Source: Phenylobacterium sp. (GTDB lineage Bacteria > Pseudomonadota > Alphaproteobacteria > Caulobacterales > Caulobacteraceae). Taken from it: DNA of 42,144 nt. Under the pieces are notes generated by a model, which saw only the letters and a program-made list of their open reading frames with translations, ran no database searches and was not told the origin of the DNA. Where the stretch lies: NCBI RefSeq assembly GCF_013911965.1, contig NZ_JACESE010000009.1, positions 133,085-175,228 on the forward strand, in the 5' to 3' direction. The stretch's first letter is position 1. The number at the start of each line of letters is the position of its first letter. Shown here piece after piece: positions 16,142 through 38,301 of the stretch. The translations under genes were made by a program, and so were the position numbers.

Positions 16142-16170
16142 CTGTCACACAACCGTTCCCGACCTGTCAC
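16142..16170 (+). promoter_or_regulatory. Pho-box-like array upstream of the ElpS-like gene
   Basis: CTGTCAC occurs at 16142-16148 and again at 16164-16170, exactly 22 bases apart, with a weaker CCGTTCC at 16153-16159 between them. The three seven-base units thus repeat every 11 bases with four-base spacers, the geometry of a PhoB binding site (CTGTCAT-N4-CTGTCAT). The array ends 103 bases before the ATG of the ElpS-like gene. This predicts phosphate-starvation control; the middle unit is poor, so occupancy is uncertain. Confidence 0.65.
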
Positions 16171-16273
16171 GGAGGCTACCTAGAAGGACCTCGGGCAAGC
16201 GGGCGTTCAGGTCTCGGGGGAGACTTGGGACTGGCCGGCGCCTGCGAATTTCATCGCCACGGCGGAGAGCAAG

Positions 16274-17734
16274 ATGACCGGCACCACCAATCTCAGAAAC
16301 CTTCTGATCATGTCGCTGAGCGCGATGGCCCTGGCGGCCTGCGGCGGCGGCGCGTCGGAAGTGGCTTCGCCCGGCGAGGGCGCCTTCCCGCCGTCGAACG
16401 GCGGCGGCTCGGGCGGCGGCAGCGGCGGCGGCTCGGGCGGCTCGGGTTCGGCGGCCAGCGACTGCCCGACCGGCTTCACCAATGTCGGCACGATCGCCAA
16501 CAACACCCTGCGCAACTGCCAGCTGCCGGCCAAGATCACCGGCAACCTCGTGGTTCCGCTGCGCTCGGGCACCATCTATTCGATCAGCGGCCGCGTGGAC
16601 GTGGGCGACGACATGGGCGGCGACGCCGCTGCGCCGAAGGCCGGCGCGGTGAAGGGCACGCTGACCATCGAGCCGGGCGTGAAGCTCTTCGGTTCGGCCG
16701 GTCTCGACTACATCGTCGTCAACCGCGGCTCGCAGATCTACGCCGAAGGCACCTCGGCCCAGCCGATCGTCTTCACCAGCCGCCAGAGCGTCGAGGGCAC
16801 GACCGGCGTCGACTCGATCGGCCAGTGGGGCGGCCTCGTCGTCCTGGGCCGCGCGCCGATCTCCAACTGCCCCGGCACGACCGCCCCGGGCACGGCCAAC
16901 TGCGAAGCCCAGGTCGAAGGCACGAACGCCTTCTACGGCGGCAACTCGGCCACCGATAACAGCGGCGTGATGAAGTATGTCCGCGTCCAGCACTCCGGCT
17001 TCCAGATCCTGCCGAACAACGAGCTGAACGGGATCACCTTCGCCGGCGTCGGCTCGGGCACGCTGCTCGACTACATCCAGGTCCACAACTCGTCGGACGA
17101 CGGCATCGAGTGGTTCGGCGGCACCGTGAACGCCAAGCACCTGGTGCTGACCGGCAATGACGACGACAGCATGGACACCGACGTCGGCTTCAACGGCGCC
17201 ATCCAGTTCGCCATCGTCGTCCAGCGCGCCAACGGCGGCGACCGCGGCAACGAGGCCTCCGGCTCCAACCGGACCCCGGCCTCCAATCCGAAGTTCGCCA
17301 ACGTGACCATGGTCGGCCGCGGGTCTTCGGACGTGATCGTCATGAACTCGGGCACCAACAACGTGTTCGCCAACTCGGTCTTCACGGCCTCGGGCACGAC
17401 GGCGGCCTGCCTCGACATCGACGACACGAACACCACCGGTTCGTTCAACTCGGTGTTCTTCTCCTGCCCGGTCGCCTTCCGTGACGACTCCAACGTCGGC
17501 GCGACGGCCACCCAGGCCATCTTCGCGGCGGGTGCGAACAACACCGCCAACGGCACGTCGACCCTGACGAGCACCTTCATCAACGGCGCGAACGAGAACG
17601 CGGTCCCGGCCGCGAACCTGACCTCGATCTCGTCCTTCTTCACCAACACCACCTACATCGGCGCGGTGCGGAACTCGAGCGACACCTGGTGGCAGGGCTG
17701 GACCTGCGGCCTGACGTCCGGCTCGTCCTGCTGA
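16274..17734 (+). CDS. ElpS-like extracellular/surface lipoprotein
   Basis: A 486-residue lipoprotein. The signal MTGTTNLRNLLIMSLSAMA ends in the lipobox LAAC, with the lipidated cysteine at 23, followed by a Gly/Ser-rich linker (about residues 40-58) and a repetitive Asn/Gly/Thr-rich domain that looks like a right-handed beta-helix, closing with DTWWQGWTCGL. In Caulobacter crescentus a phosphate-starvation lipoprotein, ElpS, is encoded beside a TonB receptor and the type II secretion genes that export it. The same order here (lipoprotein, TonB receptor, gspC-N) suggests this is its counterpart and a substrate of the adjacent secretion system. The Pho-box-like array upstream agrees. The enzymatic or binding function is unknown. 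GGAGAG precedes the ATG. Confidence 0.82.
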   Translation: MTGTTNLRNLLIMSLSAMALAACGGGASEVASPGEGAFPPSNGGGSGGGSGGGSGGSGSAASDCPTGFTNVGTIANNTLRNCQLPAKITGNLVVPLRSGTIYSISGRVDVGDDMGGDAAAPKAGAVKGTLTIEPGVKLFGSAGLDYIVVNRGSQIYAEGTSAQPIVFTSRQSVEGTTGVDSIGQWGGLVVLGRAPISNCPGTTAPGTANCEAQVEGTNAFYGGNSATDNSGVMKYVRVQHSGFQILPNNELNGITFAGVGSGTLLDYIQVHNSSDDGIEWFGGTVNAKHLVLTGNDDDSMDTDVGFNGAIQFAIVVQRANGGDRGNEASGSNRTPASNPKFANVTMVGRGSSDVIVMNSGTNNVFANSVFTASGTTAACLDIDDTNTTGSFNSVFFSCPVAFRDDSNVGATATQAIFAAGANNTANGTSTLTSTFINGANENAVPAANLTSISSFFTNTTYIGAVRNSSDTWWQGWTCGLTSGSSC

Positions 17735-17740
17735 CGGCTC

Positions 17741-17771
17741 TCGGGCGGCGGGGATCGTCCCCGCCGCCCGA
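17741..17771. terminator. Perfect 14-bp hairpin between the lipoprotein and TonB receptor genes
   Basis: TCGGGCGGCGGGGA at 17741-17754 pairs perfectly with 17758-17771 around a three-base TCG loop, starting seven bases after the lipoprotein stop. There is no T-tract, so it is more likely a stabilising or attenuating stem that lets the lipoprotein be made in excess over the receptor than a full terminator. Confidence 0.75.
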
Positions 17772-17805
17772 TCTCGTCCACGTCGATTCCCACAGGGCTG
17801 CGAAC

Positions 17806-20400
17806 ATGAAGATCTCCCTTTCCCTGAGCGCGATGCTGCTCGCGACGACGGCGCTGTTTGCGCCGCAGACCGCCCTTGCTCAGACGGAAGGGTCTGAGAC
17901 CGAGGTCGAGGAACTGGTCGTCCGGGGTCGCTACATCCCCGACGTCATGCGCGAAACGGCCGAAGTGGCCACCATCCTGACCGCCGACGACCTGCAACGG
18001 CAGGGCGACGATACGGCGGCCGAGGCCCTGACCCGCCTGTCCGGCCTGTCGGTCGTGGGCGGCCGCTTCGTCTATGTCCGCGGCCTGGGCGAGCGCTATT
18101 CCTCGGCCCTGCTGAACGGCTCGCCGCTGCCGAGCCCCGAGCCGCTGCAGCGCGTCGTGCCGCTCGACCTCTTCCCGTCGAACGTGCTGGCCGGCACCAC
18201 GGTGCAGAAGACCTACTCGGCCGCCTATTCCGGCGAGTTCGGCGGCGGCGTGATCGACCTGCAGACGGTCGCCGTGCCTTACGAGCCCTTCGTGTCCCTG
18301 GGCTTCAGCGTCGGCGGCAACACCGAAACCACCTTCGACGACGGCCTCGTCTACTACGGCTCCGACACCGACTGGACGGGCTATGACGACGGCACGCGCG
18401 ACACCCCGGACGAGCTTGACCTGGCGCTGCGCAGCGGTCTGCGGGTCGACAGCTCCAACTTCACCGACGAAGAGCTCCAGGACATCGGCCAGTCCTTCGT
18501 CAATGCGCCGCTGAACCTGCTGCAGCGCTCCTCCAGCATCGACCCGAACTACTCCATCGACGTCTCGGCCGGCACCTCGGTCGACCTCGGCTGGGGTTCG
18601 CTCGGCGTGGTCGCCGTCGCCGGCTTCGACAACTCCTGGCGCACCCGGCACGGCGTTCAGCAGGAAGGCATCGTCCAGGGTTCGGATCTCGAGGTCCGCA
18701 CCGACTACGACTACGTCTCCACCCAGAACGACGTTGTGCTGAACGGCCTGCTCGGCGTCGGCCTCGACTGGGGTCAGAACGAGATCCGCTGGACCAACCT
18801 CTACGTCCACTCGACCACGAAGGAAGCCCGCTCGCGCGCCGGCTACGACGAACTGGCCGGGGCGGACGTGCGCGACGACTACACCGAGTGGTTCGAGCGC
18901 GCCCTGATCAACACCCAGCTCACCGGCGCGCACGAGTTCGGCGATCTGCAGGTCGACTGGCGCACGGCCTTCGCCCGCACCTCGCGGGACGCCCCCTACG
19001 AGAAGGGCATCCGCTACCGCCTGGTGAACGGCGTCTATCTGCACAACGCTTCGCAGGAGCAGAACTACACCCGCTTCAGCGAAGTCGAGGACTCGGTGCT
19101 CAGCGCCGGCCTCGACCTCTCCTACACCCTGCCGCTGTCCAGCGTGCGTGAGGTGATCCTGTCGGGCGGCGTGGCCTATATGGACAACGACCGCCACGCC
19201 GAGGCCCGCGAGTTCCGCTTCCTGGCGCTGAACAACTCGCTGTCGCTCGCCGAGCAGATGCAGCGCGTCGACTTCCTGCTGTCGGACTACAACATCCGGC
19301 CGGACGGTCTGGTGATCCGCGAGACCACCGGCGCCGAAGGGGCCGCGGCCTACGAGGCGGCGCTGGAGACGAAGGCGGCCTACATCCAGGCCGACGCCGA
19401 GATCTTCCCACTGGTCCGCCTGGCGGCCGGCGTCCGCTACGAAGACGCCACCCAGTCGGTGACGCCGATCGACCTGTTCGGCGCCTCCAGCCCGGCGGTT
19501 CCCGATCCGCTGGAAAACGCCTACTGGCTGCCGACGGCGACGGTGACCTGGAACTTCTACGAGGACATGCAGCTGCGCTTCGGCGCGTCCAAGACCATCG
19601 CCCGTCCGCAGTTCCGCGAACTGGCGCCGCAACAGTACCTCGACCCCGACAACGACCGCCTGTTCATCGGCAACCCGTACCTGACCGACAGCGAGCTTCT
19701 GAACATCGACGCCCGCTACGAATGGTACTTCGCCAACCAGCAGTATCTGACGCTCGGCGCCTTCTATAAGGACATCGACAAGCCGATCGAGTCGGTGGTC
19801 AACGAGGCCGGGGCGACGGTCCAGCAGACCTACATCAACGCCCCGAAGGCGATGCTCTACGGCGTCGAGGCCGAGGTGAAGAAGGTCTTCGAGCCCGTCG
19901 TCGACACGCCCTGGCTCGCCAACAAGCGCTGGCTGATCCAGGCCAACTACACCTACTCCAAGTCCGAAGTGCAGGTGGACTCGGGCGACGTGGTCTTCCC
20001 GCTGGCGGGCGGCGGCGCCTCCCGTCCGGCCGAAGACTACGTGACCGACGGCAGCCAGCTGCAAGGCCAGTCCGAGCATCTGGCCAACCTGCAGTTCGGC
20101 TTCGAGGACGATGTCGCCCAGTCCCAGGCGACCCTCCTGGTGGCCTATGCCAGCGAGCGCATCACCGCCCGCGGCCGTCCCGGCCAGCCCGACCTCTATC
20201 AGGATCCGGGCACGATCGTGGACTTCACCTATCGCAAGATGGTCCCGGTCATGGGCTACGACCTGACCTTCTCCTTCGAGGCCCGCAACCTGCTGGCCGA
20301 GGACTACGAGGAGTATCAGGAACTCGGCTCGGGCCGCGTGAACAACAACACCTACGACCTCGGCCGCTCCTTCTCGGTCGGCGTTTCCACCCGCTTCTGA
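17806..20400 (+). CDS. TonB-dependent outer-membrane receptor of the phosphate island
   Basis: An 864-residue outer-membrane receptor. A Sec signal (to about residue 26, ALAQ) is followed by a TonB-box-like stretch EVEELVVRG, a plug domain (residues about 40-170, including FVYVRGLGERYSSALLNGSPLPS) and a long beta-barrel ending in phenylalanine (SFSVGVSTRF), the normal OmpA-assembly signal. The start is ATG 17806, 71 bases after the lipoprotein stop, and the signal peptide begins directly there; the longer open frame upstream reads through the hairpin and is not used. Probably co-transcribed with the ElpS-like gene. A substrate such as a phosphorylated compound is inferred from context only. 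A strong terminator follows. Confidence 0.92.
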   Translation: MKISLSLSAMLLATTALFAPQTALAQTEGSETEVEELVVRGRYIPDVMRETAEVATILTADDLQRQGDDTAAEALTRLSGLSVVGGRFVYVRGLGERYSSALLNGSPLPSPEPLQRVVPLDLFPSNVLAGTTVQKTYSAAYSGEFGGGVIDLQTVAVPYEPFVSLGFSVGGNTETTFDDGLVYYGSDTDWTGYDDGTRDTPDELDLALRSGLRVDSSNFTDEELQDIGQSFVNAPLNLLQRSSSIDPNYSIDVSAGTSVDLGWGSLGVVAVAGFDNSWRTRHGVQQEGIVQGSDLEVRTDYDYVSTQNDVVLNGLLGVGLDWGQNEIRWTNLYVHSTTKEARSRAGYDELAGADVRDDYTEWFERALINTQLTGAHEFGDLQVDWRTAFARTSRDAPYEKGIRYRLVNGVYLHNASQEQNYTRFSEVEDSVLSAGLDLSYTLPLSSVREVILSGGVAYMDNDRHAEAREFRFLALNNSLSLAEQMQRVDFLLSDYNIRPDGLVIRETTGAEGAAAYEAALETKAAYIQADAEIFPLVRLAAGVRYEDATQSVTPIDLFGASSPAVPDPLENAYWLPTATVTWNFYEDMQLRFGASKTIARPQFRELAPQQYLDPDNDRLFIGNPYLTDSELLNIDARYEWYFANQQYLTLGAFYKDIDKPIESVVNEAGATVQQTYINAPKAMLYGVEAEVKKVFEPVVDTPWLANKRWLIQANYTYSKSEVQVDSGDVVFPLAGGGASRPAEDYVTDGSQLQGQSEHLANLQFGFEDDVAQSQATLLVAYASERITARGRPGQPDLYQDPGTIVDFTYRKMVPVMGYDLTFSFEARNLLAEDYEEYQELGSGRVNNNTYDLGRSFSVGVSTRF

Positions 20401-20481: not shown

Positions 20482-20499
20482 CTGTCATCCGTTTGTCAC
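20482..20499 (+). promoter_or_regulatory. Pho box upstream of the gsp operon
   Basis: CTGTCAT-CCGT-TTGTCAC: two near-consensus seven-base PhoB half-sites in direct orientation with the canonical four-base spacer. It lies between the terminator at 20409-20445 and the gspC start at 20575, the expected place for a PhoB-activated promoter. This predicts that the whole secretion operon is induced by phosphate limitation. Confidence 0.82.
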
Positions 20500-20574
20500 T
20501 GAAAGTTTACATGAACTCCCGGCGGGCGCGCCCTTTTGGCGTCCCACCTGATCCTCGGGACTTCGGAGAACTCC

Positions 20575-21390
20575 GTGAACCTTCCCGCCGTGATCCGCGG
20601 CGTTTCCGTTCGGCCCCGGACGATCCTGGCCGTGACGGAGGTGGCCCTCGTCGTGGTCCTGAGCGTCCAGGCCGCACGCCTGGCCTGGAGTCTCGCCGCC
20701 CCGCCGCCGGGGCCCCTCGGCGCCCCCGCCGTCACCGCGCCGACGACCGCCGCTGACACCGACATCCTCGCCCGCTTCGATCCCTTCTTCCGCCAGGGCC
20801 TGGCGGCCGCCGCCGCCGCGGACGCCGCCCCGCAAGGCGATCTCCAGCTCTTCGGCGTCCGCACCGGCGGTCCCGGTGGCGGCTCGGCCATCATCGGCGC
20901 AGCCGGCGGAGAGCAGCGGCTCTACACCGTCGGCGAACGGCTGCCGGGCGGCCTGACCCTCGCCGCCGTCGCCGCCGACCACGTGATGCTGGGACAGGGC
21001 GCAGGCGCCCGGCGCCTGAGCTTTCCGGTCCCTGGCGCGACGCACGGCGCGGCTCCTCCTCCGCCGCCGCCTCCGGCTGCGGCCACGGGCGAGAGCCAGG
21101 CGGCGGTCACCGGCGCTCAGCTGCGCGCGGCCATGACGCTGACCCCGCGCATGCAGGGCGGCCGCCCGGCCGGCTACGCCGTCATGGCGCGCGGCGCACA
21201 GGGGAGCGCCATCCTCGCCCGTGCGGGCCTCCAGCCGGGCGACGTGCTGCTCGCCGTCGACGGCTCCGAACTCAACCCCGAACGCGTCGGCGAACTCGCC
21301 GACATCCTCGCCTCGGCCGGCCACGTCGACCTCCGCTACGAGCGGGGCGGCCAGGTCATGACCACACGCCTGCGGATGACTGCCCCGTGA
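20575..21390 (+). CDS. gspC: Type II secretion inner-membrane protein GspC
   Basis: A 271-residue GspC. It has a short cytoplasmic N-terminus, one membrane helix (TILAVTEVALVVVLSVQAA), a periplasmic homology region (DLQLFGVRTGG, AIIG, YTVGERLPGG) that binds the secretin, a proline/alanine linker and a C-terminal PDZ domain (AILARAGLQPGDVLLAVDG) thought to help choose substrates. The GTG at 20575 has GGAG six bases upstream and leaves a normal-length cytoplasmic tail; a TTG at 20536 is also in frame but lacks a good site. It is the first gene of a twelve-gene operon, and its stop overlaps the gspD start by four bases. Confidence 0.9.
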   Translation: MNLPAVIRGVSVRPRTILAVTEVALVVVLSVQAARLAWSLAAPPPGPLGAPAVTAPTTAADTDILARFDPFFRQGLAAAAAADAAPQGDLQLFGVRTGGPGGGSAIIGAAGGEQRLYTVGERLPGGLTLAAVAADHVMLGQGAGARRLSFPVPGATHGAAPPPPPPPAAATGESQAAVTGAQLRAAMTLTPRMQGGRPAGYAVMARGAQGSAILARAGLQPGDVLLAVDGSELNPERVGELADILASAGHVDLRYERGGQVMTTRLRMTAP

Positions 21391-23432
21391 AACGACTGAT
21401 CTGCGCCCTCGCCCTCGTCACGGCCACAGGCGCGAGCCTGCCGCCTGCACCCGCCTATGCTCAGCAGCAGATCCTGAACCTGCAGGACGCCGACATCCGC
21501 GTCTTCATCCAGGACGTGGCCCGGGCCACCGGCCAGACCTTCATCATCGACCCGCGGGTCCAGGGGAAGGTGACCATCACCAGCCAGGAGCCGCTGTCGC
21601 GGACGGAGCTCTTCGAGGTGATGCTCTCCACCCTGCGCGCCAACGGCCTGGTGGCCGTGCCGGCCGGCGCCGGCGTCTACCGCATCACGCCGGAGGAGGG
21701 GGCGGCGGCCCAGCCCTCCAGCCTGTCGGGCGGCGGCGGATACGGCTTCTCCACCCAGGTCTTCCGGCTGCGCAGCATCGACGCGGCCTCGGCCGCCGAG
21801 ACGCTGAAGCCCCTGATCGGGCGCCAGGGCGTGGTCATGCCGAGTCCCCGCGGCAACCTGCTGGTCGTCGCCGACTATGCCGACAACCTGGCGCGCATCC
21901 GCAGCCTGCTCGGCCAGATCGACACCGATCGGACGCTGACGGAGACGGTGACGCTGCGATCCTCCTCGGCGCGGGAGATGGCCGGCGTGGTCAATCAGCT
22001 GCTCAACCCGCCCGGGGCCGATCCCAACGCCCGCAACGGCATCGTCTCGGTCGTCGTGGTGGAGAGCAGCAATTCGCTCATCCTTCGCGGCGAGCCGGAC
22101 GCCGTCCGCCCCATCCTGTCGGTGGTCGAGGACCTCGACCGCCGCGCCGAAACCAGCGGCGACGTCCGCGTCATCAACCTCCAGCACGCCGACGCCGAAC
22201 AGCTGGTGCCGGTCCTGCAGCAACTCGTCGGCCAGGCCGTGACGCCGGCCGGCGGCGAGGGCGAGGCGTCCGCCGCGCCGGCGGCGGCCGCCGCGGCGGG
22301 GCAGGGCCAGACGGCCACGGCCGGCGGCGGCGGGCGGCGCGCCAACATCGCCCGCTATCCCGGGGCCAATTCCATCATCATCGCCGCCGACCCCGAGACC
22401 CAGCGCGTCCTGGGGGAGGTGATCCGCAAGCTCGACAATCGCCGCCGGCAGGTGCTGGTCGAGGCCATCGTGGTCGAGCTGTCCGACAACGCGGCCAAGG
22501 CTCTGGGCGTCCAGCTCGCCATCGCCGGCCAGAACGGCTCCTCGGTGCCCTTCGCCGCCACCAACTATTCGAACACTGCGCCGAACCTGCTGACCCTCGG
22601 CGCCGCCGCGGCGGCCGAGGGCGAACTGGACGAGGATTCCGCGGCGCTCCAGAGCCTGCGCCAGGCCGCCCTCGATTCCCTCCTGGGCGCTGGCGGCATC
22701 ATCGCCGGCGGTTACGGCCAGAACGACGACGCCATCTTCGGCTTCATCATCAATGCGGTGAAGACGGACACGACCTCGAACCTGCTCTCCACGCCTTCGG
22801 TGATGACGCTCGACAACCAGGAGGCCACCATCCTGGTGGGCCAGGAGATCCCGATCACCACGGGCGAGGTGCTGGGCGACGCCAACACCAACCCCTTCCG
22901 CACGGTGCAGCGCCAGGATGTCGGCATCCAGCTGGAGGTGAAGCCCCAGATCAACGCGGGCGGGGCCATCACGCTCTTCCTGCGCCAGGAGGTCTCCTCC
23001 ATCGCCGGGCCGGTCAGCGAGGACTTCAACGAGCTCATCCTCGACAAGCGCGAGATCGAAACCACCGTGGCCGTGGACGACGGCGACATCGTCGTGCTGG
23101 GCGGGCTCCTGGACCGCAACGAGCGGGTGACGGTGGAGCGCACGCCGATCCTGGGCGACGTCCCGGTGCTTGGAAACCTCTTCCGCTCCAATTCCCGCGC
23201 CAATGTGCAGCGCAACCTGATGGTCTTCATCCGCCCGACCATCATCGACAGCGCCGCCTCGGCCCGGGCGGTCACCGCGCCGCGCTATGACTACATCCGT
23301 CGCCAGGAGCTCTCGCGCAGTCCCGACGGGATCAGCGACCTCGACGCTCTCGTCCGCGACTACATGCAGGCGGAGCCCGTGACGGCCGCCCCGGCGATCC
23401 CGCCGCCGCCCGCGCCGCCGACGGCGAACTGA
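21387..23432 (+). CDS. gspD: Type II secretion secretin GspD
   Basis: A 681-residue outer-membrane secretin starting at a GTG that overlaps gspC. A Sec signal (to AYAQ, about residue 26) precedes the N0 domain (QDADIRVFIQDVARATGQTF), three N1-N3 repeats including an Ala/Gly-rich insert near residue 290, and the C-terminal secretin barrel (LSTPSVMTLDNQEATILVGQ; GDVPVLGNLFRS; VFIRPTII). It forms the outer-membrane pore through which folded proteins leave. No separate pilotin (GspS) gene was found in the window. Confidence 0.96.
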   Translation: MKRLICALALVTATGASLPPAPAYAQQQILNLQDADIRVFIQDVARATGQTFIIDPRVQGKVTITSQEPLSRTELFEVMLSTLRANGLVAVPAGAGVYRITPEEGAAAQPSSLSGGGGYGFSTQVFRLRSIDAASAAETLKPLIGRQGVVMPSPRGNLLVVADYADNLARIRSLLGQIDTDRTLTETVTLRSSSAREMAGVVNQLLNPPGADPNARNGIVSVVVVESSNSLILRGEPDAVRPILSVVEDLDRRAETSGDVRVINLQHADAEQLVPVLQQLVGQAVTPAGGEGEASAAPAAAAAAGQGQTATAGGGGRRANIARYPGANSIIIAADPETQRVLGEVIRKLDNRRRQVLVEAIVVELSDNAAKALGVQLAIAGQNGSSVPFAATNYSNTAPNLLTLGAAAAAEGELDEDSAALQSLRQAALDSLLGAGGIIAGGYGQNDDAIFGFIINAVKTDTTSNLLSTPSVMTLDNQEATILVGQEIPITTGEVLGDANTNPFRTVQRQDVGIQLEVKPQINAGGAITLFLRQEVSSIAGPVSEDFNELILDKREIETTVAVDDGDIVVLGGLLDRNERVTVERTPILGDVPVLGNLFRSNSRANVQRNLMVFIRPTIIDSAASARAVTAPRYDYIRRQELSRSPDGISDLDALVRDYMQAEPVTAAPAIPPPPAPPTAN

Positions 23433-23433
23433 G

Positions 23434-24939
23434 ATGACCGCCCCCGTCCATCCGCTGCTGCCCTACGGCTTCGCCAAGCGGCACGGCGTGGTCCTGCTGG
23501 GCGTCGACGAGGCGTCCGAAGGCGCCGCGCGCGTGGGCCTGCGCGAGGGCGCCGACCCGCTGGCGCTCACCGAGGCGCGCCGCGCGCTCGGCCGGCCGCT
23601 CCGGGTGGAGCCGCTGGGGCGCACCGAGTTCGAACGTCGCCTGTCGGAAGCCTATGCGGGCGACGGCCTGGCCGCCTCCGGCGCGGACGACCTCGACATG
23701 CCGGGCGGACTGGACAGCCTGGCCGAAGACATCCCCGCCGCCGCCGACCTGCTGGACAGTCAGGACGACGCGCCGATCATCCGCCTCATCAACGGCGTCA
23801 TCGCCGAGGCCATCCGCCGCGGCGCCTCCGACGTCCATATCGAGCCGTTCGAGACGGCGCTCCTCGTCCGCCTGCGCATCGACGGCGTGCTGCGCGAGGT
23901 GCTCAGCCTGTCGCCGCGGCTCGCCCCGCTCATCGTCAGCCGCATCAAGGTGATGGCCAGGCTCGACATCGCCGAGCGGCGCGTGCCCCAGGACGGCCGC
24001 ATCTCGCTGGCGCTCGGCGGCCGGTCGCTGGACGTGCGGGTCTCGACCCTGCCCTCGCGCGCCGGCGAGCGGGTGGTGATGCGGATCCTCGACCAGGAGC
24101 AGGCCGGCATTCCGCTGGAACAGCTCGGCATGCGCCCGGCGGTGCTCTCGGCCTTCGAGGCGGCCCTGCGCGAGCCCAACGGCGTCATCCTGGTCACCGG
24201 GCCCACGGGCTCGGGCAAGACCACCACCCTCTATGCCGGCCTGACGCGCCTGAACGACGCCAGCCGCAACATCCTGACGATCGAAGACCCGGTCGAATAC
24301 GCCGTGGCGGGCGTCGGTCAGACCCAGGTCAACGCCAAGGTCGGCATGACCTTCGCCGCGGGCCTGCGGGCCATCCTGCGCCAGGATCCGGACGTGGTCA
24401 TGGTCGGCGAGATCCGCGACGTGGAGACCGCCCAGATCGCCGTCCAGGCCAGCCTCACCGGCCATCTGGTGCTGTCGACCGTCCACACCAACGACGCGGC
24501 GGGCGCCGTCACGCGCCTGCGCGACATGGGGGTGGAGCCCTTCCTGCTGGCCTCCACGATCCGCGTCATCATCGCCCAGCGTCTGGTGCGCCGCCTCTGC
24601 CCCCACTGCCGCCGCGCCGAACCGGCGGACGCCGCGACGGCGAGGCTCGCCGGTGTCGCCGAGGGCCAGATGCTCTTCCGCGCCCAGGGCTGCGCCCAGT
24701 GCGGCCAGACCGGCTATGCCGGCCGCGTCGGCGTCTATGAGGCCATCCGGGTGGACGACCGCATCCGCCGCCTGATCAGCGAGAGCGCCGGCGAGGACGA
24801 CATCGCCGCGGCCGCCCAGGCGGCCGGCGGCGGCACCCTGTCCAGCGAGGCGCGCGCCTATGTGCTCGAAGGCCTGACGACGGTCGAGGAGGCGCTGCGG
24901 GTGACGCGCCAGGAGACGGCGGGCCATGGCGAGCTTTGA
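23434..24939 (+). CDS. gspE: Type II secretion ATPase GspE
   Basis: A 501-residue cytoplasmic hexameric ATPase that drives pseudopilus assembly. It has an N-terminal N1E-like region, the Walker A motif GPTGSGKTTTLYAGL with Lys262, an Asp box (ILTIEDPVEY), Walker B (DVVMVGEIRD), a His box (LVLSTVHTND) and a four-cysteine zinc element (CPHC and CAQC, about residues 389-430) characteristic of GspE/PilB. It starts one base after the gspD stop and overlaps gspF by 14 bases. Confidence 0.97.
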   Translation: MTAPVHPLLPYGFAKRHGVVLLGVDEASEGAARVGLREGADPLALTEARRALGRPLRVEPLGRTEFERRLSEAYAGDGLAASGADDLDMPGGLDSLAEDIPAAADLLDSQDDAPIIRLINGVIAEAIRRGASDVHIEPFETALLVRLRIDGVLREVLSLSPRLAPLIVSRIKVMARLDIAERRVPQDGRISLALGGRSLDVRVSTLPSRAGERVVMRILDQEQAGIPLEQLGMRPAVLSAFEAALREPNGVILVTGPTGSGKTTTLYAGLTRLNDASRNILTIEDPVEYAVAGVGQTQVNAKVGMTFAAGLRAILRQDPDVVMVGEIRDVETAQIAVQASLTGHLVLSTVHTNDAAGAVTRLRDMGVEPFLLASTIRVIIAQRLVRRLCPHCRRAEPADAATARLAGVAEGQMLFRAQGCAQCGQTGYAGRVGVYEAIRVDDRIRRLISESAGEDDIAAAAQAAGGGTLSSEARAYVLEGLTTVEEALRVTRQETAGHGEL

Positions 24940-26134: not shown

Positions 26135-26156
26135 GCGCGTCATTCAAGGAGTAAGC

Positions 26157-30555: not shown

Positions 30556-31274
30556 GCCCGCAGCGGCTGGACGGCCGCGCCCTGGCCGGCCTCTTCGCCC
30601 TGGCCGCCGTCCTGGCGCTCCTGGCCGCCGCGCCTCTGAGCCTGGTTCTCGGCGAACGCGCCGCCGCCGCCGGCCTTTCCGCCCAGAGCGTCAGCGGCAC
30701 GGTCTGGCGCGGCCGTCTGCAGGGCGCCAGCTTCCGAGACCTGCCCCTCGGCGAGGTCCGCCTGGGGCTCAACCCCTTCACGCTGCTGATCGGCCGCGTT
30801 CATCTGGGCTTCTCGGCCGACCAGGCGAAGGGGACGCTGCGCCTGGCGCCGCAGGGCGCAGCCTTCCACGACATGGATCTCACCGCGCCCACCTCGGCGC
30901 TCGCGCCACAGTTCCCCCTGTCCGGCCTGGCGGAGTTCTCGGACCTGAGCCTCGATGTCCTCGGCGGAGCCTGTCGCAGGGCGGGCGGCCAGGTGCGGCT
31001 GAGCGAACTCGCCCTCGACGGCGCGCCCCTGCCGGGGCTCGTCCTGAGCGGCGCGCCGGCCTGCGCCGACGGGGCGGTGCGCCTGCCGCTTTCCGGGCAG
31101 GCCGAGGGCGTCGATGTGCAGGCCGATCTGATCGTCCGCCCGGACGGCGCCTACCAGCTCACCACCACGCTGCGCACCACGCGGCCGGAGCTCGATGCGG
31201 TGCTGACCGACGCCGGCTATGTCCGCGGTCTCGACGGCTACAGCCGAACCCAGGCGGGGCGCCTCGGCCGCTAG
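30552..31274 (+). CDS. gspN: Type II secretion protein GspN
   Basis: A 240-residue protein with an N-terminal membrane anchor (LAGLFALAAVLALLAAAPLSL) and the GspN periplasmic domain, including SGTVWRGRLQGASFRDLPLGEV in pieces SGTVWRG and LPLGEVRLGLNP. GspN is found only in some type II systems and its role is unclear. It is the last gene of the operon and overlaps the convergent gspO by four bases, so no terminator fits between them. Confidence 0.88.
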   Translation: MSPQRLDGRALAGLFALAAVLALLAAAPLSLVLGERAAAAGLSAQSVSGTVWRGRLQGASFRDLPLGEVRLGLNPFTLLIGRVHLGFSADQAKGTLRLAPQGAAFHDMDLTAPTSALAPQFPLSGLAEFSDLSLDVLGGACRRAGGQVRLSELALDGAPLPGLVLSGAPACADGAVRLPLSGQAEGVDVQADLIVRPDGAYQLTTTLRTTRPELDAVLTDAGYVRGLDGYSRTQAGRLGR

Positions 31275-32020
31275 AGGCCGAGCGGACCGTAAAGCCAGGC
31301 GAGCCAGCCCCCGAGGGCCAGAAAGACGCCGAACGGCACGGGCTGGTCGCCCGCCACGGGCCGGCCGATCAGCCGCAGGATGAGCACGGCGGCGAGCCCG
31401 CTCAGCGAGGCCGCGATCATGATGGTCGGCAGGGCCCAGGCCCCGCACCAGGCGCCGGCTCCCGCCAGCAGATAGGCGTCGCCGCCGCCCAGGCCCTCGC
31501 GTCGGCGCAGCCGTCTGTAGAGCCAGGCGATCAGCGCCAGGACGAGGAAGCCCAGGGCCGCGCCGAGGGCGGCGTCGGCCAGGGCCCCGGCGCCAGCCAG
31601 GGACGCCGCAGCGAGGCCCGTGACGATCAGGGGAAGGGTGAGCAGCCGCGGCAGCCAGAAGTGCTCGGCGTCCAGCAGGGCCAGCAGCAGGAGTTGCCAG
31701 GCGTAGAGCGCGCCCAGGGCCCCTTCGGCGCCCGGATGGGCCAGGCCGGCCCAGAGCGCCAGCGCCGGGCAGGCGAGCTCAAGCGCCAGATAGCGCCGCG
31801 GGATCGGCGCGGCGCAGGTCCGGCAGCGCCCACGAAACAGGATGAACGACGCGATCGGAACGAGGTCCAGGGGGCCGAGCGTCCGTTCGCAGCCGGGGCA
31901 GGCCGAGCGCCCGAAGACGACCGGAAGCCCCCGCGGCAGCCGGACCGAGACGAGGCCGAGGAAGCTGCCGACGAAGGGGCCGATCAGGACGGGCAGGATC
32001 AGCCAGGCGAGATCGGACAA
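31271..32020 (-). CDS. gspO: Prepilin peptidase GspO (PilD type)
   Basis: A 249-residue polytopic inner-membrane aspartic protease that cuts the leaders of GspG-K and methylates the new N-termini. An N-terminal helix (GPFVGSFLGLVSVRLPRG) is followed by a cytoplasmic loop with two CxxC zinc pairs (CPGC, CRTC), then the membrane core with the catalytic aspartates in LLDAEHFWLP and the GxGD-like GLGGGDAY. It is on the minus strand, convergent with gspN and 32 bases downstream of the pstS-like gene, so it may be transcribed with the phosphate-binding operon rather than with gspC-N. Confidence 0.94.
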   Translation of the reverse strand: MSDLAWLILPVLIGPFVGSFLGLVSVRLPRGLPVVFGRSACPGCERTLGPLDLVPIASFILFRGRCRTCAAPIPRRYLALELACPALALWAGLAHPGAEGALGALYAWQLLLLALLDAEHFWLPRLLTLPLIVTGLAAASLAGAGALADAALGAALGFLVLALIAWLYRRLRRREGLGGGDAYLLAGAGAWCGAWALPTIMIAASLSGLAAVLILRLIGRPVAGDQPVPFGVFLALGGWLAWLYGPLGL

Positions 32021-32052: not shown

Positions 32053-33084
32053 TCAGGGCCGGCGCATCGGCGTCATGCCGGAGGCGACGCTCTTCATGGC
32101 CTCGTGCTGGTCGGCCGGCAGCGGGATCAGGCCACGGCCCTGCAGATAGCCGCCGCGGCCGGTGGCGGCGTCGGAGGCGAACTCGTTGACGAACTCCTGC
32201 AGGCCCTGGGTCACGCCGACATGGGCCTTCTTCACGTAGATGTAGAGCGAGCGCGAGAGCGGGTAGGAGCCGTCGGCGATGGTCGGCACGGTGGGCTCGA
32301 CGCCGTCGATCGGCATGGCCTTCACCTGGTCCTGGTTCTCTTCCATGAAGGAATAGCCGAAGACGCCGAGCGCGCCGGGCGTCTTGGTCAGGGTCTGGAC
32401 GATGGCGTTGTCGTTCTCGCCCGCATCGACCCAACCCTCGCGGCGCAGGGGATGGGTCGTCTGCTTGAACTCGTCCTCGTCCCGCGCCTTCAGCGCCTGA
32501 ACGGTCGGGAAGGTCAGGGCGCCGGCCTCGATGCCCAGTTCGATGAAGGCGTCGCGGGTGCCCGAGGTGGGCGGCGGGCCGTAGACCAGGATGCGGTTGT
32601 CGGCCAGGCCCGGACCGATCTCGTTCCAGTTCGTGTAGGGATTGTCGACGAACTGGCCGCCGCGCAGCGTCTTGGCGCTGAGGGCGAGATAGAGGTGCGG
32701 CAGGCGGAACTGATAGGTCGGCGCATTGCGGTCGGCGGCGATGACGATGCCGTCGAAGCCGACCTTCATCTCGACGATGTCGTTGACGCCGTTGGCCCGG
32801 CAGGTGTCGAACTCCGCGGCGGTCATCCGGCGCGAGGCGTTGGCGATGTCGGGAAAGTTGTCGCCGACGCCGCTGCAGAAGAGCTTGATGCCGCCGCCGG
32901 TGCCGAGCGACTCCACCTTGGGCGCCTTCATGCCGGTCTTGCGGCCGAAATTCTCCGCCACCCGGGTGGTGAAGGGGAAGACGGTCGAGGAGCCCGCGGC
33001 CCACACATAGTCGCGGGCGGCGTGGGCCGATCCGGCGGCGCTGATCGCGACCGCGGCGGCGCAGAGGGCCAGAAGCTTCTTCAT
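32053..33084 (-). CDS. PstS-like phosphate-binding protein
   Basis: A 343-residue periplasmic binding protein with a Sec signal (MKKLLALCAAAVAISAAGSAHA). The phosphate-binding fold starts with WAAGSSTVFPFT and contains ESLGTGGGIKLFC, PDIANASRRM and PPTSGTRDAF, the segments that ring phosphate in PstS proteins. No PstC, PstA or PstB gene is in the window, so it must serve a transporter elsewhere or act as a free scavenger; in Pseudomonas, PstS-like DING proteins and phosphatases are exported in phosphate stress. It lies 60 bases after the phytase gene on the same strand, and a GGAGAAAG ribosome site precedes the ATG. Confidence 0.9.
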   Translation of the reverse strand: MKKLLALCAAAVAISAAGSAHAARDYVWAAGSSTVFPFTTRVAENFGRKTGMKAPKVESLGTGGGIKLFCSGVGDNFPDIANASRRMTAAEFDTCRANGVNDIVEMKVGFDGIVIAADRNAPTYQFRLPHLYLALSAKTLRGGQFVDNPYTNWNEIGPGLADNRILVYGPPPTSGTRDAFIELGIEAGALTFPTVQALKARDEDEFKQTTHPLRREGWVDAGENDNAIVQTLTKTPGALGVFGYSFMEENQDQVKAMPIDGVEPTVPTIADGSYPLSRSLYIYVKKAHVGVTQGLQEFVNEFASDAATGRGGYLQGRGLIPLPADQHEAMKSVASGMTPMRRP

Positions 33085-33144: not shown

Positions 33145-34263
33145 CTAAGGCGCCGCCGGGTCGATTTCCAGGGCCGACTTCACGGCGCGCCAGTCGACGA
33201 GCTTGAAGTTCTGCAGCTCGCGGACCACGCCGCCGGTCGCGCCTTCGGTGTCGGCGTCGTCCTGGACGACGATCAGCCCTTCCGCATAGGGGCCCACGGG
33301 GCCGCCGAGGGCGGCGACGCCGTCGGTGCCGGTCACCGCGTCCACGTCGCCGGCCGCGGCCACGGAGAAGCGGCCCTGGTAGTCGGCGGCCTCGCCGGCC
33401 ACGCGCCAGACGGCGAAGGCGTTGTCGCCCTGGCTGGAGGCGATCAGATAGGTCTTGCCGGAGTCGCGCAGCAGGGTGAGGCCCTCGACATCGGGCGTCA
33501 GGCGCGGACCCGGCGCGGGCTCCAGCAGGGTGCGGGCGCCGCCCTTTGCGGGATCGATCGAGTAGCGCCAGATCCCCTTGGCCTCTTCCCCCACATAGAG
33601 GGCGCCGGTCGCATCGTCGATGACGCAGCCCTCGGCCTGCGAGCCGACGGCGAACGCCTGCTCCTCCACCCAGGTGGGCCGGCCCTGTTCGGCCGCGATG
33701 CGGAGCTGGCGCACGTCGCCGGCCTGGCCGACCACGACCACCAGCGTCTCCTCGCCGCGGCGGCCCATGCAGAGGCCATAGGGTTCGGAGACGGGCGCGC
33801 TCGCCAGACCCCAGGTCTTCACCTCGAGGGTGGCGGGATCCATCAGGAACAGCAGCGCGCCGCCCCGCGTGCGATGGCTGGCGGCCACCAGCACCTGCTC
33901 GCGCTCGCCGACCAGGAAGCCGGGGCGCAGATCGACATTGTTCAGCGGGCCTTCCGGCAGAAAGGCGCGGACCTCGCCGTCGAGGCCGTAGACGTAGAGG
34001 CCGGCCTTCTTGTCGGTGCCGAAGATCACGGCGCGGGAGGGGTCGCGCGGATCGGCCCAGATTTCCGGATCGTCGGCGGCGTCGCTGCGGGCGGTGCCGA
34101 CGGCCTGCGTCTCGGCCGCGGCCGGCACGGGAACGCCCGTCAGGGTCGGATCCTTGGGCGAGTCGGAGCGGAGCTCCGGATCGAACGCCGCGCAGGCGGC
34201 GAGCGACAACGCGAAGGCCGTGGCGAGCGCCACGGCCGGCAGGCGGTTTTGCAGTTGGATCAA
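33145..34263 (-). CDS. Beta-propeller 3-phytase lipoprotein
   Basis: A protein of about 372 residues. The N-terminus (IQLQNRLPAVALATAFALS) ends in a lipobox LAAC, so it should be a lipoprotein. The body matches the calcium-dependent beta-propeller phytases: DDPEIWADPRDPSRAVIFGTDKKAGLYVYGLDG in successive motifs DDPEIW, GTDKKAGLYVY and EGPLNNVDLRPGF, then EPYGLCM, GSQAEGCVIDD, VGEEAKGIWRY and DVEGLTLL. The family releases phosphate from phytate. An in-frame ATG lies at 34284, but TTG 34263 has GGAGG five bases upstream and starts directly at the lipoprotein signal, so it is preferred. It sits between a secreted phosphatase and a PstS-like gene. Confidence 0.9.
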   Translation of the reverse strand: MIQLQNRLPAVALATAFALSLAACAAFDPELRSDSPKDPTLTGVPVPAAAETQAVGTARSDAADDPEIWADPRDPSRAVIFGTDKKAGLYVYGLDGEVRAFLPEGPLNNVDLRPGFLVGEREQVLVAASHRTRGGALLFLMDPATLEVKTWGLASAPVSEPYGLCMGRRGEETLVVVVGQAGDVRQLRIAAEQGRPTWVEEQAFAVGSQAEGCVIDDATGALYVGEEAKGIWRYSIDPAKGGARTLLEPAPGPRLTPDVEGLTLLRDSGKTYLIASSQGDNAFAVWRVAGEAADYQGRFSVAAAGDVDAVTGTDGVAALGGPVGPYAEGLIVVQDDADTEGATGGVVRELQNFKLVDWRAVKSALEIDPAAP

Positions 34264-34332
34264 GGCGGCCTCCGTCGCAGACATTCTGCCCGCGGACGAT
34301 GACAGTTGTTCGACGAAGGGCCGCCTTGTCCG

Positions 34333-35424
34333 CTACTCCGTCAGACGCGCGCGCAGCGCCGCACGCTCCTCGGGTCCCACGCCGAGCGCCTTTTCGAGAT
34401 AGGCGTCCACCGATCCGTACTGCTTTTCGATGGCTGCGAACGTCGCCTCGATATAGGCCGGCTCCGTCCGCATCAGCACCCGTATCACCTCCGGCGGCAG
34501 GCGGGCGAACATGGCCGCGTCCGGGTCGTCGGGATTGATCGTCAGGCTCGTTCCGAGCAGCGTCTCGCTCATGGCGTAGTCGGCCACGACGATGTCGCGC
34601 GGCACGCCCAGCGCGCTCAGAACCAGGGCGGAGCCGACGCCCGTACGGTCCTTGCCCGCCGAGCAGTGCATCAGCATCGGCGTCTCGCCGGCCAGGAGCC
34701 GCTTAAAGAGTTCGCGGTATTCCCCGGCGTACTGCTCGTGCATCTGGCCGTAGAAGCCGATGAAGGTCGCGCGCATCGACTCCGCGGTCAGCGGTCCCTT
34801 GCCGAAGAGCTCCGACAGGTTGGCCCCCAGGCTCGCCTTGGGAGAGTTCACGAACACCGGCGCGGTCCCGACCCACAGGGTGGGCTCGATGGCCCGTTCC
34901 TCGTCGGTGCGCAGATCGCAGACCAGGCGCACGCCCAGCGCATTGACCTTCTGGAAGTCCGCGGCCGTCAGGCGGGCCAGCGTGTTGGAGCGGTAGACCT
35001 GCCCCCACTTCACGTGGCGGCCGTCCTTTGTCGGATAGCCGCCGATGTCGCGGAAGTTGGCGGCGCCTTCCAGCGGCACGACGCGGGCGGCGGTCCACAG
35101 GCCCTGGCGGGCGCCGTCGCCCTGCACGAAGAAGTAGGGCCGAACGCCGGCCCCGGCGGGATCGGTGAAGGTCGCCTGGCCATCGGTATCGTCATTGGCC
35201 GCCAGACGGCGCTGGGCGGGCGGAGCGTCGGGCCTTGCGGCCACATAGACGTCCACCGGGGCGCCCGCTTTGGCGGCCTTCCAGGTCACGGTGAAGGTGC
35301 GACCCTCCTGGGCGACGGCGGCCTGCGTGACGGGAGCCTGCGTGAGGGGGGCCGCGGCCGAGGCCGCCGTCGTCAGGACGGCGGCGGCGAGGGCGGCGCT
35401 CGCGAGCATGAGCTGTCGGGTCAT
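34333..35424 (-). CDS. Secreted tyrosine/inositide-type phosphatase (HCxxGxxR)
   Basis: A 363-residue exported phosphatase. A Sec signal (to ASAAAP, about residue 25) precedes a small beta domain (residues 40-115) and the catalytic domain. That domain shows NFRDIGGYPTKDG, VYRSNTL, LVCDLRTDEER and the active loop HCSAGKDRTG with Cys254 and Arg260. This is the PTP group that includes mycobacterial PtpB and Listeria LipA, whose members act on phosphotyrosine and phosphoinositides. Between a TonB receptor (13 bases upstream) and a phytase (69 bases downstream), a nutritional role in stripping phosphate from inositol phosphates or other esters is likely, though not shown. Confidence 0.9.
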   Translation of the reverse strand: MTRQLMLASAALAAAVLTTAASAAAPLTQAPVTQAAVAQEGRTFTVTWKAAKAGAPVDVYVAARPDAPPAQRRLAANDDTDGQATFTDPAGAGVRPYFFVQGDGARQGLWTAARVVPLEGAANFRDIGGYPTKDGRHVKWGQVYRSNTLARLTAADFQKVNALGVRLVCDLRTDEERAIEPTLWVGTAPVFVNSPKASLGANLSELFGKGPLTAESMRATFIGFYGQMHEQYAGEYRELFKRLLAGETPMLMHCSAGKDRTGVGSALVLSALGVPRDIVVADYAMSETLLGTSLTINPDDPDAAMFARLPPEVIRVLMRTEPAYIEATFAAIEKQYGSVDAYLEKALGVGPEERAALRARLTE

Positions 35425-35437
35425 CGGTCGTTTCTCC

Positions 35438-38301
35438 CTAGAAGTTGAAGCGCACGCCGGCGAGGTAGCGGCGGCCGGTGCCTTCCACCTCGATCGGGCG
35501 GTTCGTCGCGCCCTGGTAGCGGCGGCCGATTTCGTCGGTCAGGTTGTTGGCGTCGAAGAACAGGGTCAGCTCGGGCCGCACCTGGTAGCGGAGCGACAGG
35601 TCGAGCTGCTCGGTGGCGTCCCAGTAGGTCTCGTCGGTGGCGCCCACGCTCGGCTCGTCCAGCCAGGCGTCCCGCCACTGATAGGAGATGCGCGCCGAGA
35701 CCCCGTAGCGCTCGTAGAAGAGCGAGGCGTTCACCAGCGTGTCCGACATGCCCGGATAGGCCGAGGTGGTTCCGCCCGGCGTCTTGAATTCGCCGTCCAG
35801 GAAGGTGAGGTTCCCCTGGAAGCCGAGGCCCGCCAGCGGACCCGGCAGGAAGTCCCACTGCTGCAGATAGGCGAACTCGACGCCGCTCAGCTCGCCGTCC
35901 GAGCCGTTGAGGGTGGTGGCGTAGTCATAGCCGGTCCGGTCCACGCCCCCCGCGTCGTAGCGGTCGTCCGTGATCACCGTGGTGGCGTCGAAGATCACGT
36001 CGTCCACCTTCCGGTAAAAGGCGCTGACCGAGGCGAGGCCGGCGCCCGGCAGGTACCATTCCAGAGCCGCATCCAGGCCCCACGCGCGCTCCGGCTCCAG
36101 GTCCGGGTTGCCGCCGGTGACGGTCTCGCTGACGTCGTCGACCGCCACGCTGGTGCGGATCTCGCCGAAGGACGGGCGGGCCACGCCGCGGATCAGGGCG
36201 GCGCGCGCCTTGATGTCGCGCGTGATCTCATAGTTCACGTGCAGCGAGGGGAAGAGGTCGGTGTAGTCGTTCTCCACCTCCAGCGGCGTCAGCACGCCCC
36301 CGGCGGCGATGACGCCGGCGCTGGTCAGGTCCACCCGCTCCACCCGCAGGCCGGCCAGGATCTCCCAGGGCCCCGAGTCCACTTGTTCTGAACGTAGGCC
36401 GACAGGATGTCCTCATCGACCGTGAAGCGGTCCTGCGGCTGGACGAGACCGTTCGGATCGTAGAGGCCGGCGGCCGTGGCCTGGGCCAACAGGGCGTCCA
36501 GGTCCTCGCGCAGGCCCGGATTGTCGACATAGGTCACGCCCCAGCCGCGCTGGAAATCGCTGTCCCACGGGGCGGCGGTGATGCGCGGGGTGACGCTCCA
36601 GGTCGTCCCGAGCCGGCCCGCCAGGACCTGCAGCTGGGGCGTGGCGCCGGGCAGGCCGGAGAAGGTGTTGCCGTCGGCGCGGCGCTGGTCGTACTTCACG
36701 CCCGCCTTCAGCACGGCCGCGGCGCCGAAGGAGGTCCAGTCGCGGGCGATGTCGAGCTGGCCGGTCCAGGAGTCGGTGTTCGTCTCCGCGACGATCGGGA
36801 TCAGCACGTCGACCACGGAGCCCGTCTGCGGCAGATCGGCCAGGGCCGCGCCGCGGGAGAAGGTCGCGCCGGGCGTGGAGCGGTAGAGGTCGAGGTCCGG
36901 AATCCCGGCCTCGGCGCCGGTCCAGGCGAGCGACAGGCGGCCCGTGCCGGACGCGAAGTTCTCCTGGACGAGCGGCAGGTTTATGCCGGCGTCGGTGTGG
37001 GTGTAGTTCAGCCGCCAGGCGACGTCCCAGCCGAAGACGTTCTCGTGATCGCCGCCGAGGGTGTTGGCGAAGGTGTCGGAGTAGTAGCGGCCGTACTGCC
37101 AGGTGCCGGTATAGCCGGCGCCGTCGACGAAGCCTGAGTCGCCCACGCGGTTGGCCGGCGACTGGGTGCGGGCGCGCGAGAGCTGGAAGTCGTACTGGTT
37201 GCGCTGCTCGCGGTCGATGAACTCCGAATAGAGGCTGTCGAAGAAGATCCGGCCGCCGCCGTCCGGGCGATATTCGACGCCGAAGTGGCCGGCGTTGTTC
37301 TCCCGCTCCAGCCGATAGGAGCGGAACGAGAAGTCGTCGGCGGTCGACATGTCGCCGTCGCGGCTCCAGGTGATCTCGCGGTTGTCGGTCGTCTGGTTGC
37401 GGCGGTAGTGGGCCAGCGCCGCCGTCACGCCGAAGCGGTCGCCCGACCAGGAGACGCGGCCGGAGAACTGCCGCTGCGGCCCGTCGCCCAGCTCCATCTC
37501 GCCATAGCCGGCGTCGCCGGAGACGTGCAGGCCGCGCTGGTCGAAGGGCGAGCCGGTGACGATGTTGATCCGCCCCGCCAGGGCCTCGGCCGGCTGGTCG
37601 GGGGTCAGGGTCTTGTTGATCTCCAGGGACTGGATGACCACGGCGGGCACGGAGTCGAAGCGGAACACCCGCTCCTCGGCGCCCAGCACGTTGATCCCGT
37701 CCACCGCCACCACGGTCCAGCGCTCCGGCGCGCCGCGCAGCTGGACGTAGCGCTCCTGGCCCTGGTCGCGCTCGATGGCCACGCCCGGCAAGCGCGACAG
37801 GGCCGCGGCCGCCGACTGGTCGGGGAAGCGGCCGATGGCGTCGGCGGCGACGATAGAGACGATGTTCTCCGCCGCCCGCTGCTGGGCGATGGCCGCGGCC
37901 TGGGAGCCGACGATCGGGCTGGCGGTGACGACCACCTCCCCGACCTCGGTGTGGTCCGTGCGGCCGAGGACGATCTGCAGGGGCTGCGCGGTCGGGGCGC
38001 TCACCTGGATCGTACGGGTTTCGAAGCCGGGATAGCGCGCCTCGACCAGGTGCGCGCCGGCCGGCAGGGCGAGTTCGAAGCGGCCCTCGCGGTCGGTGCT
38101 GGTGCGCAGGTCCAGAGCCGGGACGGCGATCTGCACGGCGGCGAGGTAGCGGCCCGCCCCGTCGACCACGCGGCCTTCGACAGATGCGGCGGCGGCCGGG
38201 CTGGCGGCCGGAGCCTGGGCGTGGGCGAGGCCCGCGAGCGGCGCGGACATGGCCGTGGCGAGGAGGAGGGCCTTCAAGGCCCGGCGAGCTGGTTGCGACA
38301 T
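35438..38301 (-). pseudogene. TonB-dependent receptor interrupted by a one-base frameshift
   Basis: A receptor that would be about 954 residues. The first part (38301 down to about 36380) has a Sec signal, a carboxypeptidase-regulatory-like domain (SVEGRVVDGAGRYLAAVQIA), a plug (NIVSIVAADAIGRFPDQSAA; RYVQLRGAPERWT) and half of a barrel up to YVQNK. From there the barrel continues in another frame (DSGPWEILAGLRVERVDL) to the terminal phenylalanine at 35438 (YLAGVRFNF). The total length is two bases more than a multiple of three, so restoring one base near 36379-36384 (for example TGGAC to TGGGAC) rejoins the frames. It is either a recent inactivation or a sequence error; the rest is well preserved. 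It heads the phosphatase-phytase-pstS operon. Confidence 0.9.

Follow-up and report, generated by a model that had tools for sequence, protein, structure and literature searches.

A probable cluster of Pho-regulon units grown at the gspO end of a Caulobacter-type secretion locus in Phenylobacterium

Organization of the locus

The 42,144-nucleotide stretch of Phenylobacterium sp. DNA considered here (NZ_JACESE010000009.1, positions 133,085 to 175,228, part of contig 33 in a 3.86-Mb draft genome; henceforth the window) carries a type II secretion system (T2SS) together with genes for an ElpS-like lipoprotein, TonB-dependent receptors, a phosphate-binding protein, a phytase and a phosphatase. The plus strand holds elpS-tbdrA and gspC-N, and facing them on the minus strand lie gspO, pstS, the phytase, the phosphatase and tbdrB. 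Pfam profile searches matched every gene of the secretion system, which is complete, as had been claimed from the sequence beforehand. The gspC-gspN block (20536..31274, plus strand) comprises gspC (20536-21390), gspD (21387-23432), gspE (23434-24939), gspF (24926-26134), gspG (26157-26603), gspH (26578-27069), gspI (27053-27427), gspJ (27424-28005), gspK (28002-28982), gspL (28964-30088), gspM (30088-30555) and gspN (30552-31274; PF01203), with the prepilin peptidase gene gspO (31271..32020, minus strand; PF06750, PF01478) convergent with gspN.

The elpS-like gene (16274..17734, plus strand) encodes a protein of 486 residues with the lipobox ALAAC and no Pfam or NCBIfam match. Its name, and with it the ElpS-like lipoprotein of the original prediction, rests on this lipobox and on a position like that of cc0170 in Caulobacter crescentus, before a TonB receptor, gspC-N and a convergent gspO. 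It is followed by the receptor gene tbdrA (17806..20400, plus strand; PF00593/PF07715, the TIGR01782 match being below its cut-off). On the opposite side, pstS (32053..33084, minus strand) matches PF12849 (PBP_like_2) above the cut-off, and the phytase (33145..34284, minus strand) is a predicted lipoprotein (SLAAC) of the beta-propeller type, which matches PF02333 with E=1.5e-61 and aligns at length with the solved phytases 1poo, 1cvm, 1qlg and 3amr; both had been named correctly from the letters alone.

The gaps between the minus-strand genes from tbdrB to gspO measure 13-60 bp and would permit a single operon. This was set aside, as a conserved Pho box precedes the phytase and the genes beyond it form a cassette with its own boundaries, so that the minus-strand genes look like two units rather than one operon. 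The single phytase-phosphatase-PstS operon that had been proposed does not hold, in that the cassette has its own tetR and no good Pho box, and phytase-pstS-gspO starts at a box of its own.

Pho boxes preceding three units

Pho boxes were sought with the pattern [CT]TGTCA[CT]-N4-[CT]TGTCA[CT] (maximum score 24), simplified from the Escherichia coli consensus as printed in PMC2225411. Sites found in this way precede elpS, gspC and phytase-pstS-gspO and are kept in close relatives, which supports the original reading of the region as a phosphate-starvation locus. The sole perfect two-repeat site in the window, CTGTCATCCGTTTGTCAC (20482..20499, plus strand), lies 54 bp before gspC, and 20 Markov shuffles of the window yielded no site scoring at least 22/24. 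All 11 genomes of clade-1, by which we mean the window (included in the count) and the other genomes of its T2SS clade (G176 being assigned by gspC alone), have the site in perfect form. In six other genomes of the genus it is weaker (18-21) at about the same position, and outside the genus scores range from 15 to 22. Random 320-bp stretches of these loci (about 3000 draws, true sites included) reach 24 in 0.3% and 19 in 4.6% of cases.

The site before elpS (16142..16170, plus strand) consists of two perfect CTGTCAC heptamers 22 bp apart (starts at 16142 and 16164), that is, two 11-bp repeats with a weak middle one. The exact 22-bp pair recurs in 13 of the 15 genus genomes with readable upstream DNA; of the other two, one has a 23-bp spacing and one a single heptamer. 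The Pho-box-like sites that the original prediction placed before both plus-strand units are these two. Its list was incomplete, as it did not mention the further box before the phytase, TCGTCGAACAACTGTCAT (34299..34316, minus strand), which scores 19/24 and lies, measured from its far end, 32 bp upstream of the phytase, where relatives have their pstS box. In G196 and G214 the phytase box scores 21, its far end likewise 32 bp from the gene, and in the seven clade-1 genomes without a phytase at pstS the box stands about 190-250 bp before pstS, scoring 20-21 in six and 17 in G162. Taken together, the pstS/phytase box reaches 19-21/24 in nine of ten clade-1 genomes, the tenth being G162. As a control for the scan, 17 further pstS genes of the family whose upstream DNA could be read were included, of which nine have a site of at least 18. 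No good site precedes tbdrB-phosphatase, where the best score is 16/24.

Stepwise assembly of the gspO end

Matches to T2SSC were found in 34 of 149 genomes of the family and 18 of 101 of the genus, five being shared, which gives 47 in total. The region beyond the T2SS is readable in 40 of them (35 with at least 8.7 kb past gspL, plus the window, G059, G144, G214 and G205); the other seven (G176, G193, G002, G049, G066, G135 and G139) were left out as clipped or as having the gspC-like gene away from gspE. Within the 40, pstS adjoins gspO in ten, all of clade-1, the phytase does so in four (the window, G196, G214 and G205), and the phosphatase cassette adjoins the T2SS in the window alone. G205 belongs to another T2SS clade, and its phytase is accompanied by a divergently oriented TonB receptor gene of a different kind; its phytase-gspO adjacency therefore looks like a second event. 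All 18 T2SS-positive genomes of the genus were searched for the phytase, and six have it. Conservation of phytase and phosphatase with the T2SS in relatives had been set in advance as a test of the original prediction, and the counts of 4/40 and 1/40 are a mixed outcome.

Gene order among the clade-1 genomes suggests how the minus strand arose. In G140, G190, G198, G026, G162 and G059 it reads pmbA, an inositol-monophosphatase gene, the Pho box with pstS, and gspO, with gspN convergent, and in G144 the contig stops inside the inositol-monophosphatase family gene. G196 and G214 have the phytase between box and pstS, with pmbA and the inositol-monophosphatase gene still upstream. In the window the phytase occupies the same place, and tetR/tbdrB/phosphatase (34333-39701) separates the box from the pmbA-side genes, the old neighbours of the box-pstS unit, which are retained on the far side, namely a small conserved gene (39739-39951), the inositol-monophosphatase family gene (39969-40940) and pmbA (40763-42094), all on the minus strand. 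The DNA of G196 matches that of five phytase-less relatives at 83-88% identity until roughly where the phytase begins (with G162 the match ends shortly before the box). Between box and pstS, a search of five such relatives for leftovers of the phytase gave nothing convincing (best tblastn E 0.74; at the DNA level, a few matches of 13-32 bp, best E 0.005). Loss of the phytase in these relatives is disfavoured on this ground, and a gain in the branch of the window, G196 and G214 is preferred. Two successive insertions, of the phytase and then of the cassette, would explain the minus-strand order.

The gene displaced from its box is probably that of PstS itself. A PF12849 search of the window's own genome returned a single match, the pstS beside gspO (a TIGR02136 match of the same protein was below its cut-off), and a full match to pstC lies elsewhere in the genome, on contig 2; as the sole PF12849 protein it presumably serves PstCAB. 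In C. crescentus, too, pstS is named separately from pstCAB-phoUB in the available text of PMC11208175. The PstS-like protein of the original prediction is therefore upheld, and is moreover the only one of its kind found in the genome. Relatives of PstS occur in 79 of the 149 family genomes, 72 of them strong and seven weak (E above 1e-15), the strong ones, one of which is clipped by a contig end, being 55-83% identical with the window's own excluded. Lying as it does between pstS and the place of the relatives' pstS box, the phytase appears to have captured the promoter of the cell's only PstS.

Two further observations were made on phytases of the family. Tandem two-domain phytases (loci L084-L086 and most of L002-L024) are mostly a single frame of about 690-770 amino acids, in which the weaker domain comes first and the stronger second. 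At 38 of the 41 loci L095-L135 the phytase lies near a TonB receptor of another kind, divergent or in line, which is about 26-40% identical to tbdrB.

The elpS-tbdrA pair

Relatives of ElpS are found in 66 of the 149 family genomes, up to 69% identical, and at 76% in two members of the genus. They adjoin the T2SS in the genomes taken for Caulobacter, and 33 of the 34 T2SSC-positive family genomes carry ElpS (the exception being G030), at a distance from gspC in G135 and G139. In every stretch long enough to show both, tbdrA adjoins elpS. This association extends to genomes without the secretion system: 33 of the 66 ElpS-bearing family genomes have no T2SSC match, and in 20 of 20 of these that were examined a tbdrA relative directly follows elpS on the same strand. 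As many as 17 of the 20 are also without a T2SSG match, with G001, G080 and G085 having a weaker one.

The pair and the secretion system also differ in their histories. In identity matrices of 20 genomes having elpS, tbdrA, gspD and gspE, the correlation is r=0.97 for elpS/tbdrA and 0.96 for gspD/gspE, as against 0.77-0.79 for the cross pairs. The window's gspD and gspE fall in clade-1 with 100% bootstrap. Approximately unbiased (AU) tests exclude its elpS and tbdrA from that clade (p 4e-8 and 5e-64), do not reject their grouping with G154 and G161 (p 0.28 and 0.48) and reject the same grouping for gspD and gspE (p 1e-8 and 0.003). These p values are optimistic, the groups having been picked once the first trees were known, and the rows of the trees were built on the columns of the window; both points temper the case for separate ancestry. 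Judged from these comparisons, elpS-tbdrA is a unit of its own, with an ancestry that here differs from that of the T2SS core. Its retention without a T2SS and its different ancestry argue against a T2SS plus its substrate, and for a lipoprotein-receptor importer.

We go further only tentatively, and at somewhat less than an even chance, in proposing that ElpS is not in the first place a cargo of the T2SS but one of two components of an importer for phosphorus compounds in the outer membrane, in which it would take the surface side and TbdrA would form the channel. Such an importer would be a proteobacterial counterpart of the lipoprotein-receptor pairs of Bacteroidetes, exchanged between genomes as a unit. 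Only in some of them would it be combined with a T2SS, and the gspO end of that T2SS would then have collected pstS and the phytase. No SusD-type profile matched ElpS, and likeness to the SusCD importers is therefore meant only in the sense of working like them. Searches of the PDB with phmmer and with a profile gave no match for its fold; at best there was a weak beta-helix hint, for one of 16 members (E=0.086). For C. crescentus, the available text of PMC2996285 already proposes an interaction between elpS and cc0171, the counterpart of tbdrA, and describes ElpS as reaching the surface without the T2SS.

In three genomes (G066, G002 and G049; loci L078, L080 and L081) a gspC-like gene directly precedes elpS-tbdrA, with no other gsp gene matched in the stretch and a T2SSG match elsewhere in the genome. 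Upstream of elpS in the window lie an ion-channel protein gene (15168-15977, plus strand) and an MscS-type channel gene (13731-14978, minus strand); the latter is overlapped by a frame matching glycosyltransferase family 20 (12334-14685, minus strand), the starts of both being uncertain.

The tetR-tbdrB-phosphatase cassette

The phosphatase (34333..35424, minus strand) matches PF13350, has the solved chains 8dhi and 1ywf as its nearest, and bears an N-terminal signal-like stretch and the P-loop HCSAGKDRTG, which is of a type found in phosphoinositide-acting enzymes. The secreted inositide-type phosphatase of the original prediction is supported in part, by the profile match and the signal-like stretch; a wider search for named relatives gave four distant and uninformative matches (Acidobacteriota and acetic acid bacteria). 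Of the two TonB receptors predicted, both have the receptor domains, but tbdrB (35438..38301, minus strand) is not intact, being split by a frameshift into two overlapping frames: a plug part (36325-38301; CarboxypepD_reg and plug) and a barrel part (35438-36382). The frame shifts at about 36325-36382 in this assembly, and ten relatives have one open frame; the shift may be decay or a slip of the assembly.

Divergent from tbdrB is a double-domain regulator of the TetR family (38514..39701, plus strand; PF00440 twice), so that the boundary at 38301 given in the original prediction falls too early, this gene belonging with tbdrB-phosphatase in relatives, where the three stay together with tetR at the same place. 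The gap between tbdrB and tetR contains two GAACG-N-ATGTAC repeats (38342-38353 and 38464-38475) as candidate operators of the TetR protein, and GAACGNWTGTAC is present in seven of eight relatives' tbdrB-tetR gaps. The cassette is closer to the versions of Caulobacter-like genomes (phosphatase 57-58% identical, receptor halves 70-75%) than to those of clade-1 relatives of its own genus (39-44% and 46-57%), which suggests that it was acquired by transfer. G071, G086 and G056 have a tandem phytase close to it; the contigs of G064 and G142 end just past tetR, and the cassette of G146 was left out of this comparison.

A model of the locus and its alternatives

The explanation we consider probable is that the locus is a cluster of Pho-regulon units grown at the gspO end of a Caulobacter-type T2SS. 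The three units elpS-tbdrA, gspC-N and phytase-pstS-gspO each begin at a Pho box, and at low phosphate PhoB would turn them on together. ElpS and TbdrA would act as an outer-membrane lipoprotein-receptor pair for the binding and uptake of a phosphorus-containing ligand, the lipid-anchored phytase would release phosphate from phytate-like substrates, and PstS would pass it to PstCAB. The T2SS would act in parallel, for instance by exporting an ElpS-shedding protease, as proposed for C. crescentus, rather than as a dedicated exporter of the phytase. The cassette is probably governed by whatever ligand its TetR protein binds, and in this strain the receptor that it encodes may no longer function.

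Several observations weigh against this explanation. The phytase box is imperfect, and with 4.6% of random 320-bp stretches scoring 19 its weight rests on its conservation. The scan itself is no sure guide: eight of the 17 control pstS loci have no box of at least 18, the best score before gspC is just 15 in six Caulobacter-like loci, and the 22-bp heptamer pair of elpS is found in none of the four readable loci outside the genus, though the T2SS of C. crescentus is PhoB-regulated. According to the available text of PMC2996285, cc0171 is constitutive and gspE/gspL rise 1.7-fold in poor medium, and joint control may on this account be loose.

The alternatives differ chiefly in what they make the T2SS do. 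The original prediction saw a dedicated phytate-scavenging system, with phytase and phosphatase as the proteins that its T2SS exports or displays. Adjacency of phytase and gspO in apparently two separate lineages (window/G196/G214 and G205), and in four of the six genus genomes that have both T2SS and phytase, speaks for it, as does the T2SS-dependent phosphatase secretion in Pseudomonas putida on which Putker et al., by their title, reportedly worked. Yet a relaxed pattern marks 34 of 35 phytases of this type, window included, as lipoprotein-like, a strict pattern 17 of them, and 26 of the 35 come from genomes without a T2SSC match. In other genera, where 24 T2SS loci were readable, no phytase lies within about 9 kb past gspL, and the phosphatase is next to a T2SS in only one of 40 loci. 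Together these counts make such a system improbable. More improbable still is that PstS is here a T2SS substrate like Psp (DING) of Pseudomonas fluorescens, whose gene adjoins a T2SS and of which an hxcR mutant secretes less according to the available text of PMC2225411. The presence of pstS beside gspO in ten of ten readable clade-1 genomes would fit this, but P. fluorescens has a separate PstS besides Psp according to the same source, and the protein of the window is the sole PF12849 protein found in its genome, for which reason a DING-type PstS was not our first choice; furthermore, relatives of PstS (55-71% identical) occur family-wide, with no gsp gene at 18 of 18 loci (read for about 4 kb to either side, or as far as the contig reached).

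That Pho-regulated genes merely drifted together, with no working link beyond shared PhoB control, is unlikely, even though every module occurs alone elsewhere and the full set in one genome. Drift accounts poorly for the precise placing of the phytase between Pho box and pstS, for its apparently twofold arrival on the gspO side, and for the nearness of the closest cassette versions to a phytase in three of three Caulobacter-like loci where the contig continues. This last link bears on a further proposal, which overlaps with the Pho-regulon cluster preferred here, that the cassette is an uptake module for phytate or inositol phosphates working with any nearby phytase. Its linkage to phytases, single-domain in the window and tandem in G071, G086 and G056, together with a P-loop of the kind found in phosphoinositide-acting enzymes, would be consistent with this, and the available text of PMC8115612 offers a parallel in a phytase/TonB-receptor pair of Flavobacterium induced by low phosphate. 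The frameshift in the window's receptor and the lack of a phytase in the stretch read at all eight distant versions of the cassette (G026, G140, G190, G196, G214, G130, G133 and G148) leave the proposal rather doubtful, if somewhat less so than drift.

Relationship to known systems and implications

Much of the locus is a version of a gene arrangement known from Caulobacter. The order elpS, TonB receptor, gspC-N and convergent gspO, with a lipoprotein of phosphate starvation, is that of the C. crescentus elpS-cc0171-gspC-N/gspO locus in the available text of PMC2996285, a likeness to Caulobacter which the original prediction had recognized. Unlike the locus presented there, gspO is here followed by pstS, the phytase and the tetR-tbdrB-phosphatase cassette, and the window's elpS-tbdrA and T2SS core appear to have different histories. 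The PhoB regulon of C. crescentus includes the same classes of genes (the T2SS, PstSCAB, TonB receptors and a phytase) in PMC11208175, which treats the regulon and in its available text does not describe a phytase under the pstS promoter beside the T2SS. The Hxc T2SS of P. fluorescens, as given in the available text of PMC2225411, likewise has a phosphate-binding-protein gene with a predicted Pho box beside it, but Psp is an extra, exported homologue, whereas in the window's genome PstS alone matches PF12849. From Flavobacterium, lipoprotein-receptor pairs of low phosphate have been described, along with a phytase that is listed together with a TonB receptor (PusCD and the phytase-TBDT pair; available text of PMC8115612); the lipoproteins concerned are SusD-type, whereas ElpS has no SusD profile. 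For the phytase-pstS-gspO unit no description was found among titles and openings of abstracts, a coverage that takes in few subscription papers.

What these comparisons would add is the independence of elpS-tbdrA from the T2SS across genomes and its joint exchange. Should elpS-tbdrA function where there is no T2SS, the connection published between ElpS and the secretion system would be a secondary one, a matter of shedding, and attention would turn to the ligand that the pair binds. For three strains of Pseudomonas the available text of PMC5082522 gives no evidence of PhoBR control of the phytase, from which a control gained by position would differ. The locus suggests a stepwise route of this kind, in which a phytase that comes to lie downstream of the sole pstS promoter is thereby placed under the control of phosphate.

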